Shown piece after piece: positions 58,268 through 63,725 of a DNA stretch of 64,000 nt. A program made the translations under genes and the position numbers. The stretch is taken from contig CAIRXW010000030.1 in assembly GCA_903882665.1 (NCBI GenBank), positions 1 to 64,000 on the forward strand, written 5' to 3'. The notes beneath the pieces are model-generated. The model searched no databases. It was not told where the DNA came from and saw only the letters and a list, made by a program, of their open reading frames with translations. The stretch is from an uncultured Chlorobiaceae bacterium. GTDB lineage: Bacteria > Bacteroidota > Chlorobiia > Chlorobiales > Chlorobiaceae. Position 1 is the first letter of the stretch; each line of letters opens with the position of its first letter.

Positions 58268-58437
58268 TGTTCCGGGAGGGAATAGGTTAAAGGAGATTGA
58301 GTGGCTGAAGCTGACGTCTGCGCCCAAGGGTGCCGGTTTGTGTTGAACTGAAAAGATATGCATATTTCCCAAAAAAGTGCGCCGCGTTTTGCCTTGGCCT
58401 CTTCTTGTCTGGTCGGTGATGAACTTCTGGATTGTTT

Positions 58438-60606
58438 ATGATGCTGTTGATAAGCCTGGCAGAGATACCTTTGCCGTTGAAAAACCCGGTGTTGCAGTTC
58501 TCACTGTTGCTCTTTATCATCCTCTTTGCACCGGTGCTTTTTAACCGGCTGAAAATCCCGAGCCTGATTACCCTCATTCTTGCCGGAGCGCTGATTGGCC
58601 CCTACGGGTTGAACCTGATGCTTCGTGACAGCAGCATCATCCTTTTTGGAACGGTGGGGCTGCTCTATATCATGTTTCTTGCCGGGCTGGAGATTGATGT
58701 GGCCGATTTCCGTAAAAACAGCACAAAAAGCATCTTCTTCGGACTCTATACCTTCCTTATTTCCATTGTTTTCGGCATTGTTGTTGCGCTCTATATCCTT
58801 CAGTTTTCGCTTCTCTCCTCCATTCTTATCGGCAGTATTTTTGCTTCTCACACGCTTATTCTCTACCCGGTCGTCAGCAAGCTCGGCATTGCCAAGAACA
58901 GGGCGGTCAATGTAGCAATCGGCGGCACCATTATTACCGATACCCTGGCCCTTCTGGTGCTTGCAGTCGTGGTCGAATTGTCGGGAGGAGAGCTGACGGG
59001 CGTATTCTGGATAAGGCTGATTATCGGCGTAACGCTCTTTAGTTTGATTGTTTTGCTGCTTTTTCCCGTTGTGGCCCGATGGTTTTTCAAGCGCTTTGAA
59101 GACAGCGTGCAACAGTATCTCTTTGTGCTGGCGCTGGTCTTTTTCAGTGCCTTTCTGGCCGAAGCCGCCGGTGTTGAAGCCATTATCGGCGCCTTTTTTG
59201 GAGGCCTTGCCCTGAATCGTCTTATTCCGCGGACATCACCGCTCATGAACCGAATCAAGTTTGTCGGCAATGCCATCTTTATCCCCTTTTTTCTGATCGG
59301 CGTCGGTATGTTGATCAATATCCAGGCTTTTTTCAAAGGCTATGAAACCATTAAAGTTGCACTGGTTGTCACCGTTGCCGCAACGATTGCCAAATATCTT
59401 TCAGCCTGGATGACACAGAAACTTTTTGGCTTTTCTCTCGACCAGCGGCGACTGATTTTTGGACTGATCAGCGCCCATGCAGCACTGGCCCTGGCAACTG
59501 TCTTGATCGGCTACAATATTGTCATCGGTTATACCCTCAGTGGTGACCCCGTCAGGCTGCTTGATGAAAGCGTGCTGAACGGAACGATTCTCTTTATTTT
59601 GATAACCTGTACCCTTGCAACCATCGTCGGAGAGAAAGGGGCGCAGAACATTGCGCTGGCCGAGGCACTTGACGAGGTTCCGGAACCCGGAGTTTCGGCA
59701 GAGGAAGAACGGATACTGATCCCCATGAGCGACATCCGTACGGTCGATGAGCTGGTCAATCTCGGCATAACCGTCAAATCGCATAAATATCGCCACGGCA
59801 TTTATGCCCTGCATGTAGCGAGTAACAGCATAAGCGGTGAGGCGGAAGAGAGGGGTGGGGCCAAGATTCTTGAAAAAGCGGTTGTTGCAGCATCCTCCAC
59901 CGATCATGCACTGACACCGCTGATTCGTTATGACCGCGATCTGGTTAATGGTATTGCCGGGGTGATCAGGGAACAGAAAATCACCGATCTGATTTTGGGA
60001 CTTCATCATAAGAAAGAGCTCTCGGAGAGTTTTCTCGGCAGCACATCGGAGAGTATTCTCGGACGCTGCAATGTCACCACCTTCATCTATAAACCGGTAC
60101 AGCCCCTCGCCACCATCAAGCGAACCATTGTCATCATCCCTGTAATGGCGGAAAATGAGAGCGGTTTTGTGCTCTGGATGGAGAGGCTCATCACGATCAT
60201 AACAAACACGGGAAGCAAACTGGTGATTCATGCTTCCCGCCAGACCATTGCCTGCCTGAAGGAGAGTTACTTCGAGAGCATGGCCCATGCCGAGTACAAG
60301 ATGTTCAAAGAGTGGGATGAGTTTCTGCTGCTGTCGAAAGAGATCAAAAATGACGACAACCTCATTCTCGTGATGAGCAGAAAAAACAATCTCTCCTATC
60401 ACTCAAAGATGTCGAGGATTTCATCCTATCTCAACCGCTACTTCCAGAAAAACAGCTTTATACTCATCTACCCCGTCCAGATCGGCCTCCCCGAAGAGGC
60501 CCTCGAAAACACCCCTCTCCAGCCTTTCCAGAAAAGCCTCTTCAACTTCGACAAAATCCTGAAAAAAGTCTACAAAAAAGTTCGCCACAAAAGATCCCGC
60601 CAATAA
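58438..60606 (+). CDS. CPA2-family cation:proton antiporter with C-terminal cytoplasmic domain
   Basis: A 722-aa inner-membrane antiporter of the KefB/NapA type. About 12-13 helices occupy residues 10-400, with IPSLITLILAGALIGPYGLN and LYIMFLAGLEIDVADF in the first half and the core TDTLALLVLAVVVE region around residue 170. The soluble part from about 425 to 722 has no TrkA-N (NAD-binding) glycine motif; it looks like two universal-stress-protein-like halves (RTIVIIPVMAENESGF near 567). Many such proteins are found in Bacteroidetes and Chlorobi. Na+ or K+ specificity is not readable. Start at the first ATG of the ATGATG pair. Confidence 0.85.
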   Translation: MMLLISLAEIPLPLKNPVLQFSLLLFIILFAPVLFNRLKIPSLITLILAGALIGPYGLNLMLRDSSIILFGTVGLLYIMFLAGLEIDVADFRKNSTKSIFFGLYTFLISIVFGIVVALYILQFSLLSSILIGSIFASHTLILYPVVSKLGIAKNRAVNVAIGGTIITDTLALLVLAVVVELSGGELTGVFWIRLIIGVTLFSLIVLLLFPVVARWFFKRFEDSVQQYLFVLALVFFSAFLAEAAGVEAIIGAFFGGLALNRLIPRTSPLMNRIKFVGNAIFIPFFLIGVGMLINIQAFFKGYETIKVALVVTVAATIAKYLSAWMTQKLFGFSLDQRRLIFGLISAHAALALATVLIGYNIVIGYTLSGDPVRLLDESVLNGTILFILITCTLATIVGEKGAQNIALAEALDEVPEPGVSAEEERILIPMSDIRTVDELVNLGITVKSHKYRHGIYALHVASNSISGEAEERGGAKILEKAVVAASSTDHALTPLIRYDRDLVNGIAGVIREQKITDLILGLHHKKELSESFLGSTSESILGRCNVTTFIYKPVQPLATIKRTIVIIPVMAENESGFVLWMERLITIITNTGSKLVIHASRQTIACLKESYFESMAHAEYKMFKEWDEFLLLSKEIKNDDNLILVMSRKNNLSYHSKMSRISSYLNRYFQKNSFILIYPVQIGLPEEALENTPLQPFQKSLFNFDKILKKVYKKVRHKRSRQ

Positions 60607-60706
60607 CCCATCCTCAAAAAAAGGGGGACGTTGTTGATATTCAGCACTTATTAAAATTTATTGTTAACTTTACAGTAATTTCAACTAACCACTGAGGAGA
60701 GGTGAG

Positions 60707-62209
60707 ATGCCGCATGGAGCGAGACTTGATTCGCCCGGAACCCTGCATCACGTCATGGTTCGAGGAATAGAAGGATGCGGAATCGTTATGGATGACGTCG
60801 ATCGTGAGCATTTCCTCTTCCGCATGGGCAAACTGGCGAAGGCAACGGGCACGACGATCTATGCATGGGCATTGATGACCAACCACGCCCATATTCTGCT
60901 CAAGAGTGGGGATGAGGGGTTGGCGTCATTCATGCGCAAACTGCTCACCGGCTATGCAACCGAGTACAACCGTCGCCACAAAAGGCACGGCCATCTCTTC
61001 CAGAACCGCTATAAGTCGATCATTTGCGAGGAAGAGCCCTACTTCGTGCGTCTGGTCAGTTACATTCATCTCAACCCCTTGAGGGCCGGAGTTGTGGGCT
61101 CCATGCAAGAGCTTGACCGTTATCGGTGGAGTGGCCATTCAGGCATCATGAAACAGAATAACAATAAGTGGCAGGAGATCGACCTCGTTTTGCGCTTTTT
61201 TGGTGAGAAGGAGGGTAAGGCCAGAGAGGCATATCGACTTTTTGTTGAAGGGGAGAGCCGAAGAGGAGAGCAGCCTGAATTGACCGGCGGAGGGCTGATT
61301 CGTTCCACCGGTGGTTGGTCGGAAGTGAAGTCGCTACGACAGCGGGGGGAAAAGCAGTTCAGCGACGAGCGGATTTTGGGCAGCGGAGAATTTGTACGCG
61401 AGATACTTGAGCAGGCGGAAGACTCCATCAAGGCCCTTCTTCCAGCGGTGAGCCTGGGCCTTGATGCGGCTGAAGAGCTTCATAAAAGATGCGACGAATG
61501 CGGCATTGCATTGCAGTTGATGGAGTCTGGCAGCAAAAGAGGGGAGTGCACGGCACTGAGAAAGGAGCTTGCGGTGAAGTTTGTCAAGGAGTTCGGATTA
61601 TCATACGCAGAGACAGCACGTCAGCTTGGCGTCTCAACGTCGGCCGTGAATCAGATCTTCCGCCGACTCGCCCGAACGGTTCCCCTCATTCTGTTGTTTA
61701 TGAACGTGCTATCGGCATGCAACGGCACTCCGTCCCCGACAATAACTCAAAAAACCACAGCCATGACTGAAAAACAACATCCCCTCAACCCCTACTACTC
61801 GCGTACCGATACCACAAGCCTTACGCTCTCTGATGCTGTCTGGAAGGAGGTGCTCTCTCCCGCAGTTTATGAGGTTGCTCGACACGGCTCTACCGAACAG
61901 GCATTTTCAGGCAAATACTGGGATTATGAGGGAAGGGGAACATACTCCTGCGCGGCATGTGGCAACAGGCTCTTCCGTTCTGACGCCAAGTTTGCCAGTA
62001 CCTGCGGCTGGCCCAGCTTTTTTGAAACCGTACGCCCGAACAGTGTTCTCTATCGGAAAGACTCCTCATTCGGGATGGCGAGAACGGAGGTTGTTTGCGG
62101 ACGCTGCAAGGCACACCTCGGCCATGTTTTCAACGACGGTCCGCCTCCAACGGGAAAGCGATTCTGCATGAACTCCATCGTTCTCGATTTCGAGCCGGAT
62201 AAAGAGTGA
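60707..62209 (+). CDS. RAYT transposase fused in frame to lipoprotein-type MsrB
   Basis: A 500-aa chimaera. Residues 1-140 are a REP-associated tyrosine transposase (IS200-like Y1 fold): TLHHVMVRGIEG, HUH residues His60 and His62 in MTNHAHILL, Tyr87 in ATEYNRRHKRHGHLF, then YIHLNPLRAG. Residues about 280-320 form a helix-turn-helix (SYAETARQLGVSTSAVNQ). From about 350 the protein is peptide-methionine (R)-S-oxide reductase: zinc pairs in SCAACG and VCGRCK, GWPSFF, and catalytic Cys487 in RFCMNSIVLDF. A GTG at 61646 would give the MsrB part its own lipoprotein signal peptide (IFRRLARTVPLILLFMNVLSAC, lipobox Cys338). So either the two genes overlap, or they are truly fused. Confidence 0.85.
   Translation: MPHGARLDSPGTLHHVMVRGIEGCGIVMDDVDREHFLFRMGKLAKATGTTIYAWALMTNHAHILLKSGDEGLASFMRKLLTGYATEYNRRHKRHGHLFQNRYKSIICEEEPYFVRLVSYIHLNPLRAGVVGSMQELDRYRWSGHSGIMKQNNNKWQEIDLVLRFFGEKEGKAREAYRLFVEGESRRGEQPELTGGGLIRSTGGWSEVKSLRQRGEKQFSDERILGSGEFVREILEQAEDSIKALLPAVSLGLDAAEELHKRCDECGIALQLMESGSKRGECTALRKELAVKFVKEFGLSYAETARQLGVSTSAVNQIFRRLARTVPLILLFMNVLSACNGTPSPTITQKTTAMTEKQHPLNPYYSRTDTTSLTLSDAVWKEVLSPAVYEVARHGSTEQAFSGKYWDYEGRGTYSCAACGNRLFRSDAKFASTCGWPSFFETVRPNSVLYRKDSSFGMARTEVVCGRCKAHLGHVFNDGPPPTGKRFCMNSIVLDFEPDKE
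61646..62209 (+). CDS. msrB: Peptide-methionine (R)-S-oxide reductase B, possible separate start
   Basis: This is the 3' part of the RAYT-MsrB frame read from the GTG at 61646, giving a 187-aa lipoprotein. It begins with two Arg, then a hydrophobic stretch and LSAC, a correct lipobox, so the enzyme would sit on the periplasmic membrane face. It repairs oxidised methionine in envelope proteins. Zn2+ is bound by the Cys pairs of CAAC and CGRC, and Cys487 of the long frame attacks the sulfoxide. The start codon is inferred from the signal peptide; no strong ribosome-binding site precedes it. Confidence 0.6.
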   Translation: MNQIFRRLARTVPLILLFMNVLSACNGTPSPTITQKTTAMTEKQHPLNPYYSRTDTTSLTLSDAVWKEVLSPAVYEVARHGSTEQAFSGKYWDYEGRGTYSCAACGNRLFRSDAKFASTCGWPSFFETVRPNSVLYRKDSSFGMARTEVVCGRCKAHLGHVFNDGPPPTGKRFCMNSIVLDFEPDKE

Positions 62210-62645
62210 TAATGTGTGCTGCTTGTATGGATGTTGGAAAAACGGTGTCGTAATTGTCTGGCAACGAGATTGTCATGTATAGCGTAAACCATTATAAAAT
62301 ATGGTAGAATATGGTTGATCCGCTTCAATACCATTCATTAGGTGTCAATCCAGCTCTTGACCTTGTTTTGGCAGATATTTTTGTAAAGTTATAGCCGTTG
62401 CTCTGCAAAGCGTAAACTTTGTCGTCTTTAATGGTGCCTTTTTCAAAAAACCGCATAACATGCGAAAACGATTATAACGAAGGCTTGCAGAATTTTTTTA
62501 CACTTATTGATCTGCGAGATGGGAGTGCAACTGATGAGATGAAGATTGATGCGGCGTGAACCCTCAAGTTCATAAATGTGTTGATGGGTAAACAACGCAA
62601 AATATATGACCTGTTATTGAACCATTTTTTTTTGAGGAATTTACC
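62210..62645. other. Intergenic region before the OYE reductase gene
   Basis: About 435 bases with no supportable gene. AGCGTAAAC occurs twice (near 62280 and 62405), the second time within GCAAAGCGTAAACTTTGTC, an imperfect dyad of AAAG and CTTT. It may belong to an operator for the downstream reductase gene, but no known site is recognised. AT content rises towards 62630. Confidence 0.35.
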
Positions 62646-63725
62646 ATGTCGATACTCTACACCCCAATTACTCTCGGCCCGATGGTTCTGCAAAACCGTC
62701 TGGTTATGGCACCAATGACCCGCAGCCGTGCACCCGGCAACATCCCAAACGCGCTTATGGTGGTGTATTATGCGCAACGCGGTACCGCAGGGCTCATCAT
62801 TACCGAGGGTACCTCATCATCGCCGAATGGATTGGGCTACCCGCGCATACCGGGAATATTCTCCGCCGCCCAGGTTGAGGGATGGATAGCCATTACTGAA
62901 GCGGTGCACGAAAAGGGGGCAAAGATATTTTTGCAACTCATGCACTGCGGGCGGATCTCCCATGCGCTGAATATGCCCACTGGTGCCCGTGTGCTTGCGC
63001 CTTCAGCCGTTGCCGCTGCTGGCGAGATGTACACGGATGCTGATGGACTGAAACCCTTTCCTGTGCCGGAGGTCATGAGCAGTGATGATATCAGTGCTGC
63101 GATTGCCGAGTATGCCGACGCCGCCAAAAATGCTGTGTCAGCAGGGTTCGACGGTGTCGAGTTGCATGCTGCAAACGGCTATTTGCTCGAACAGTTCATC
63201 CGTCCGAATTCGAACCTGCGTACCGACAGTTACGGCGGTTCGCTGGAAAATCGTGCCCGGTTTGTGCTGGAAGTTGTCGATGCGGTGACCACGGCCATCG
63301 GCAGGGAAAGAGTTGGCATACGGCTCTCCCCGTTCGGCGTTTTCAACGACATGCCGCTTTACGACCGAATGGAGGAGGAGTACGCATGGCTGGCCAAACA
63401 GCTCAATCTCGCAGCTCCCGCCTATATCCATCTTGTAGACCACTCCTCAATGGGTGCCCCAAACGTGCCCGACAGCATGAAGGAGACATTTCGTAAAGAA
63501 TTCAAAGGTGCGTTGATTCTCTCCGGAGGTTATGATGCCGAGCGGGCCGAAAGTGATGTGGCCGGGGGCAAATGCGACCTCATTGCTTTTGGGCGGCCAT
63601 TTATTGCAAATCCCGATCTTGTCGAACGATGGAAAAGCGGATCAGCTCTGAACTCTCCAGATATGGGTACGTTTTATACTCCCGGGCCTAAGGGTTATAC
63701 CGACTATCCGGCGTTGCAGGATTAG
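62646..63725 (+). CDS. Old Yellow Enzyme family alkene reductase (NemA-like)
   Basis: A 359-aa FMN-dependent TIM-barrel ene-reductase. YTPITLGPMVLQNRLVMAPMTRSRA is the N-terminal signature. Further typical blocks are ITEGTSSSPNG, FLQLMHCGRISH, and FDGVELHAANGYLLEQFIRP with the substrate-binding His and Asn. GGSLENRARFVLEVV, then LILSGGYD and DLIAFGRPFIANPDL complete the flavin site. It reduces activated C=C bonds of electrophilic compounds with NAD(P)H. A regulator (NemR) is not adjacent. AGGAATTTACC before the ATG gives a weak ribosome-binding site. Confidence 0.92.
   Translation: MSILYTPITLGPMVLQNRLVMAPMTRSRAPGNIPNALMVVYYAQRGTAGLIITEGTSSSPNGLGYPRIPGIFSAAQVEGWIAITEAVHEKGAKIFLQLMHCGRISHALNMPTGARVLAPSAVAAAGEMYTDADGLKPFPVPEVMSSDDISAAIAEYADAAKNAVSAGFDGVELHAANGYLLEQFIRPNSNLRTDSYGGSLENRARFVLEVVDAVTTAIGRERVGIRLSPFGVFNDMPLYDRMEEEYAWLAKQLNLAAPAYIHLVDHSSMGAPNVPDSMKETFRKEFKGALILSGGYDAERAESDVAGGKCDLIAFGRPFIANPDLVERWKSGSALNSPDMGTFYTPGPKGYTDYPALQD

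Follow-up and report, generated by a model that had tools for sequence, protein, structure and literature searches.

The window, a stretch of 64,000 nucleotides from an uncultured Chlorobiaceae bacterium (green sulfur bacteria; its genome is called G000 here), carries on its forward strand an open reading frame of 500 codons (60707..62209, ATG start) in which a RAYT transposase runs into a lipoprotein methionine sulfoxide reductase, MsrB. There is no internal stop in these 500 codons, and translation from the RAYT ATG stays open until 62207. Upstream on the same strand is the gene of a membrane protein of monovalent cation:proton antiporter type (58432..60606, TTG start as listed), identified from the ORF list and tblastn synteny, whose function we take from its sequence. 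Downstream, also on the forward strand, is presumably an old-yellow-enzyme-like NADH:flavin oxidoreductase gene (62646..63725), syntenic in several of the 15 genomes compared; the order antiporter-then-msrB is common to all 15 (tblastn). Between the antiporter gene and the fusion lie the left terminal inverted repeat (TIR) of the RAYT element (GGGGGACGTTGTTGATATTCAGCACTT, 60623..60649, forward strand) and a Shine-Dalgarno (SD)-like sequence (AGGAGAGGTG, 60695..60704, forward strand) 5′ of the RAYT ATG, a purine run that precedes this ATG also in the two other fusion genomes described below, G020 and G009. No forward sigma-70-like promoter turned up in a consensus scan of 60400-62700, where the phylum's own promoters may differ from the consensus. 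Given the good SD at the RAYT ATG and the lack of a stop before 62207, the 500-aa product should accompany RAYT synthesis.

The initial annotation had described an intact HUH transposase with a helix-turn-helix (HTH) and an intact MsrB in this single frame, and the domain searches bear this out. The Y1/HUH core (60707..61126, forward strand, codons 1-140) carries H60, H62, Y119 and N123, and Pfam places Y1_Tnp at codons 30-121 (33.5 bits, cut-off 23). HTH_23 follows at codons 285-321 (61559..61669, forward strand), passing marginally (24.8 bits, cut-off 24.6), with the recognition helix STSAVNQIFRR at its end; the same HTH end is found in standalone RAYTs. The MsrB domain (61853..62197, forward strand, codons 383-497) was recognised by SelR (157 bits, above the cut-off) and by TIGR00357 (162 bits, cut-off 113), as well as by its PDB relatives and a fold match. 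The HUH histidines H60/H62 and Y119, the Zn pairs C415/C418 and C464/C467 of MsrB and its catalytic C487 are all present and are invariant across the three fusions. An AlphaFold model of the fusion had a mean pLDDT of 62.7, with the HUH and MsrB parts confident and the middle part not; Foldseek matched the model to the E. coli RAYT 4er8 (E 7e-6, prob 1.00) and its MsrB part to MsrB structures. In a phmmer search of the RAYT half against PDB the sole match was a designed helical protein. The locus carries the only recognised MsrB of G000, no other SelR protein having been found in this 99.88% complete genome, and the RAYT is the only Y1 transposase found there.

With 55.8 bits, the protein scored below the 80-bit equivalog cut-off of NF047646 (NCBIfam REP_Tyr_transpos), the model for canonical REP-associated tyrosine transposases. 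TnpA-REP subclass 2.1 was defined with a C-terminal HTH_23/HTH_28/Bac_DnaA_C extension (PMC6006769), and for this subclass, also named RAYT group 1 or TIRYT, the published TIR consensus is GGGG[AT][CG]A[CG] (PMC6006769, PMC3733652). Like TIRYTs (PMC6006769, PMC3733652), the RAYT described here is a long protein with a Y1 HUH core, including the catalytic tyrosine, and a C-terminal HTH_23, and its element type is flanked by GGGG-type TIRs and has sparse dispersed repeat copies. Unlike them, it is fused in frame to a host enzyme, has lost its right TIR and is fixed as a single copy at one locus. Standalone RAYTs of the genus are mostly 320-342 aa long, and most intact ones have a left TIR, GGGGACGT, 80-104 nt before the ATG and an inverted right TIR within ~60 nt of the stop or overlapping it. 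The left TIR of the fusion matches the repeat 5′ of these standalone RAYTs, is conserved among the fusions and has copies elsewhere in G000; no right TIR accompanies it. Both GGGGACGT and the fusion's left end, GGGGGACGTT, differ from the TIRYT consensus at the last two positions. Judged by these sequence features, the transposase fits subclass 2.1/TIRYT apart from the absent right repeat. We considered CGTCCCC at ~61732 as a relic of that repeat and rejected it as a chance match, since these seven bases lie in a proline/serine-rich linker common to relatives.

Comparison with standalone RAYTs and with RAYT-less relatives located the junction of the two genes. Many standalone RAYTs terminate within or shortly after ...SAVNQI(F/L).R, the nearest ones (in G003, G063 and G065) read ...VNQIFRRLA(S/G)... 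and RAYT-less msrB reads ...LARTV..., which places the RAYT/msrB junction at codons 320-323 (R-L-A-R; 61664..61675, forward strand). The short shared DNA there, a putative microhomology of ~6 nt, suggests that the fusion originated by a deletion. The junction lies within the lipoprotein signal (61646..61720, forward strand), which reads RRLARTV-PLILLFMNV-LSAC: a basic n-region shared with the RAYT, a hydrophobic h-region (PLILLFMNV) and a lipobox (LSA-C338) that is matched in 14 of the 15 syntenic genomes. With this lipobox, the CxxC Zn pairs and the catalytic Cys, the enzyme resembles lipoprotein/periplasmic MsrB (SelR, TIGR00357), of which MsrB-only orthologues occur across Chlorobi and Bacteroidota. 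Unlike in other lipoprotein MsrB, the signal peptide is internal in the 500-aa product, behind 313 transposase codons.

The initial annotation had called for a search for the same fusion in relatives, and we found it, stop-free and gapless over 500 codons, at this syntenic position both in G020 (94% identity) and in G009 (82%; JAAXWX010000042.1, a Chlorobiaceae MAG). Pairwise dS among the fusions is ~0.34 and ~1.0 (0.34 and 1.04 for the RAYT half). The RAYT half is under purifying selection (dN/dS ~0.11, pairwise among the three fusions; dN 0.11, dS 1.04 and ratio 0.105 for G000-G009), resembling standalone RAYT pairs (0.11-0.26), and MsrB has dN/dS of 0.02-0.08 across fusion pairs (dN 0.086, dS 1.13 and ratio 0.076 for G000-G009). 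For the adjoining antiporter gene dN/dS is 0.12 and dS 0.34 and 0.86 (the latter for G000-G009), close to the values of the fusion halves, which indicates that the parts share one age and travelled together. A neutral RAYT half would be expected to gain ~8 and ~13 stops at dS of ~0.34 and ~1.0; as the frame is intact in all three genomes, chance is excluded, and the low dN/dS together with the lack of stops indicates that the RAYT half is kept as a protein. Thus, the joining of a RAYT to a cell gene, as had been proposed, is a host-transposase fusion held in frame in three genomes with its transposase part selected. An order-wide survey yielded ~105 RAYT matches in 98 genomes, with an open frame of more than 363 codons only in the three fusions (506, 506 and 527). 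A 470-codon frame in G051 was rejected as a second fusion because it only crosses overlapping MFS-type gene sequence.

To follow the history of the locus we compared the 15 syntenic genomes, using the antiporter gene as tree marker. The RAYTs of the three fusions group in a single clade (support 90/65 and 85/88) whose nearest neighbours are standalone RAYTs of the sister lineage, and in the rooted antiporter tree the fusions stand in two places, G009 apart from G000 and G020. Between and around these places, several relatives without an intact RAYT at the locus bear scars of the element: only the left TIR remains in G061, G065 and G070, the HTH alone remains in frame with MsrB in G024, and G012 has scrambled RAYT pieces. 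In four others (G062, G010, G074 and G077) the last RAYT codons, of (V/M)NQ type, serve as the msrB start at the position of GTG 61646, as emerged when RAYT-less N-termini were compared as the initial annotation had suggested. This start is a GTG that overlaps the antiporter TGA in G062 and G074, lies in an ATGA overlap with the antiporter end in G010 and is an ATG slightly after the antiporter stop in G077. No RAYT scar was found at the locus in G021, G066 and G079. The 15-genome comparison suggests a single origin, after which the RAYT would have been lost at least five times, and later deletions best account for the RAYT-less relatives. One gain and at least five losses fits best on these one-gene trees, in which two nodes have moderate support (86/83, 89/84); if introgression occurred, the scarless G021 clade could be primitively empty.

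Some of these relatives contain further reading frames at the locus. In G024 (L031) a ~239-aa frame, HTH-signal-MsrB, begins at an ATG within the end of the antiporter gene, the RAYT body being deleted, and its HTH has dN/dS of 0.16-0.25; the product is possibly an HTH-membrane-MsrB protein. In G012 (L032, 3174-3329) a RAYT relic directly after the antiporter TAA (TAAATG) is open into msrB for ~100 codons, possibly providing a second, non-homologous leader for msrB. In G061, G065 and G070 (L180, L178 and L179) the antiporter frame enters the left repeat, and the transposon end encodes its last residues (KLGGR..).

On the strength of these comparisons we consider it somewhat probable that the locus is a vertically inherited fusion, derived from a TIR-flanked RAYT that lost its right TIR and stop, with a polyprotein product that is split at LSA-C338. 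A RAYT of subclass 2.1/TIRYT type, with its TIRs, would have inserted between the antiporter gene and a lipoprotein msrB. The right TIR and the stop codon would then have been lost, probably via a small deletion at short shared sequence (CTGGCA, the LA codons), placing the RAYT in frame with the msrB signal peptide. This would have relieved msrB of the need for a start codon of its own and held the element at its site: ribosomes from the RAYT ATG would have to continue into MsrB, and because the halves share frame and codons a stop in either would be harmful, leaving the fusion locked until a deletion removes the RAYT. It is also conceivable that the RAYT and MsrB are each selected for themselves and that the codons they share do no more than lock the frame. 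Most likely, the 500-aa product would be a self-splitting polyprotein. RAYT and HTH would remain cytoplasmic as an oversized n-region while the Sec pathway takes up the hydrophobic stretch, and Lgt and LspA (signal peptidase II) would modify the protein and cut it at LSA-C338, releasing MsrB as a periplasmic lipoprotein; internal starts may supply some normal pre-MsrB. The RAYT would be retained for its own DNA activity. We infer the deletion mechanism, the dominance of read-through, the signal processing and this RAYT activity. It is unusual for a protein to be exported efficiently with a cytoplasmic domain of 320 residues ahead of its signal.

An alternative, possible but in our estimate unlikely, is that two genes share one frame, MsrB being made mainly from GTG314 (61646..61648, forward strand) or GTG290 (61574..61576, forward strand) and the 500-aa read-through being a functionless by-product. 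The initial annotation had proposed that the recognition helix SAVNQIFRR and the lipoprotein n-region share codons and that the GTG at 61646 could start the lipoprotein. The sharing is supported in that SAVNQIFRR is intrinsic to the RAYT, standalone copies included, and that in four relatives (GTG in G062 and G074, ATG in G010 and G077) msrB has no usable start other than the position equivalent to codon 314, which also speaks for two genes. However, codon 314 is GTC in G020, so that internal initiation there cannot be general, and no SD precedes GTG314 in the fusions. GTG290 is preceded by AAAGGAG (61561-61567) in G000, G020 and G024 and by a weaker SD in G009, but this motif falls within conserved RAYT codons (RKELAV) and may be incidental to them. 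A dip in synonymous substitutions over codons 271-372, considered as a sign of overlapping coding at an internal start, was not significant (p 0.07, 0.17 and 0.60) and was rejected. One may reason that a stop after codon 314 kills MsrB and one just before it cuts the HTH, and that the frame would therefore stay open without any function of the fusion; against this, each ribosome that makes the RAYT makes the fusion too.

Membrane regulators of the ToxR/CadC type combine a cytoplasmic HTH, one hydrophobic segment and a periplasmic domain. A similar layout is possible for the fusion, which differs by its lipobox and enzyme domain. An uncleaved 500-aa membrane protein could make DNA binding or RAYT action respond to the redox state of the envelope, a reading that we regard as improbable. 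Both HTH and MsrB are intact and under selection, the modelled helix 311-338 joins the recognition helix to the hydrophobic stretch (at low confidence), the left TIR kept just upstream is a possible binding site, and the HTH of G024 persists in frame with signal and MsrB alone. Yet a short hydrophobic stretch that leads into a conserved lipobox favours cleavage, and the RAYT was often lost while MsrB was kept, so the coupling is dispensable. Likewise improbable, in our view, is that the 500-aa protein and the HTH-only form of G024 would be membrane-spanning, redox-linked DNA-binding proteins, in which periplasmic MetSO chemistry at MsrB is coupled to the cytoplasmic RAYT binding or cutting DNA at the left TIR and the dispersed copies of it. 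Finally, an error of sequencing or assembly, or a stop codon lost recently by accident, against which the initial annotation itself had cautioned and which draft, metagenome-derived assemblies might invite, is scarcely credible and was rejected: the orthologues in G020 and G009 are gapless at dS up to 1, a distance at which neutral simulation gave at least five stops, and no relative has a RAYT that stops just before a separate msrB, an arrangement we sought among them.

The fusion invites comparison with CSB-PGBD3 of primates, a host-transposase fusion in which alternative splicing joins an intronic element behind the host part (PMC2268245). Both join a domesticated transposase under selection to a host protein, and in both cases the genome contains related, non-autonomous elements at dispersed sites; here the union is a single prokaryotic ORF with the transposase first and a predicted exported enzyme. 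We found no paper in the literature searched that pairs a RAYT with a methionine sulfoxide reductase. Why bacteria retain RAYTs is an open question, on which a RAYT tied to a repair enzyme bears: some lineages have kept it intact under selection and others have deleted it time and again, leaving scars that can still be read, a natural experiment on how RAYTs are maintained. The transposase end supplies the start of the host gene's export signal, and the enzyme is predicted to be exported with a cytoplasmic DNA-cutting domain of 320 residues in front of it.

We counted five exact copies of GGGGACGTNGNTGATATT in G000, three in G020, 12 in G003, eight in G063, four in G065 and one in G009; elsewhere there are four in G002, one in G024 and none in the remaining genomes of this genus. 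Their distribution follows that of this RAYT type, as one would expect of a RAYT-repeat pair. The dispersed repeats of G000 (C30:66198, C36:12348, C39:12334, C45:17094 and C57:6457) are mostly of the right-end form, GGGGGACGTTGTTGATATTGTGTATTTA, and the C39 copy is common to G020, G024 and G077. We considered candidate new TIR insertions in G000 as a possible sign that the fused RAYT is active; their flanks diverge, and G024 has a decayed version of the C57-site copy. G003 lacks msrB and RAYT at the locus and has a right-end-type repeat ~150 nt after the antiporter gene (G003:C12:31312-31329, L233), perhaps a relic of the same element.
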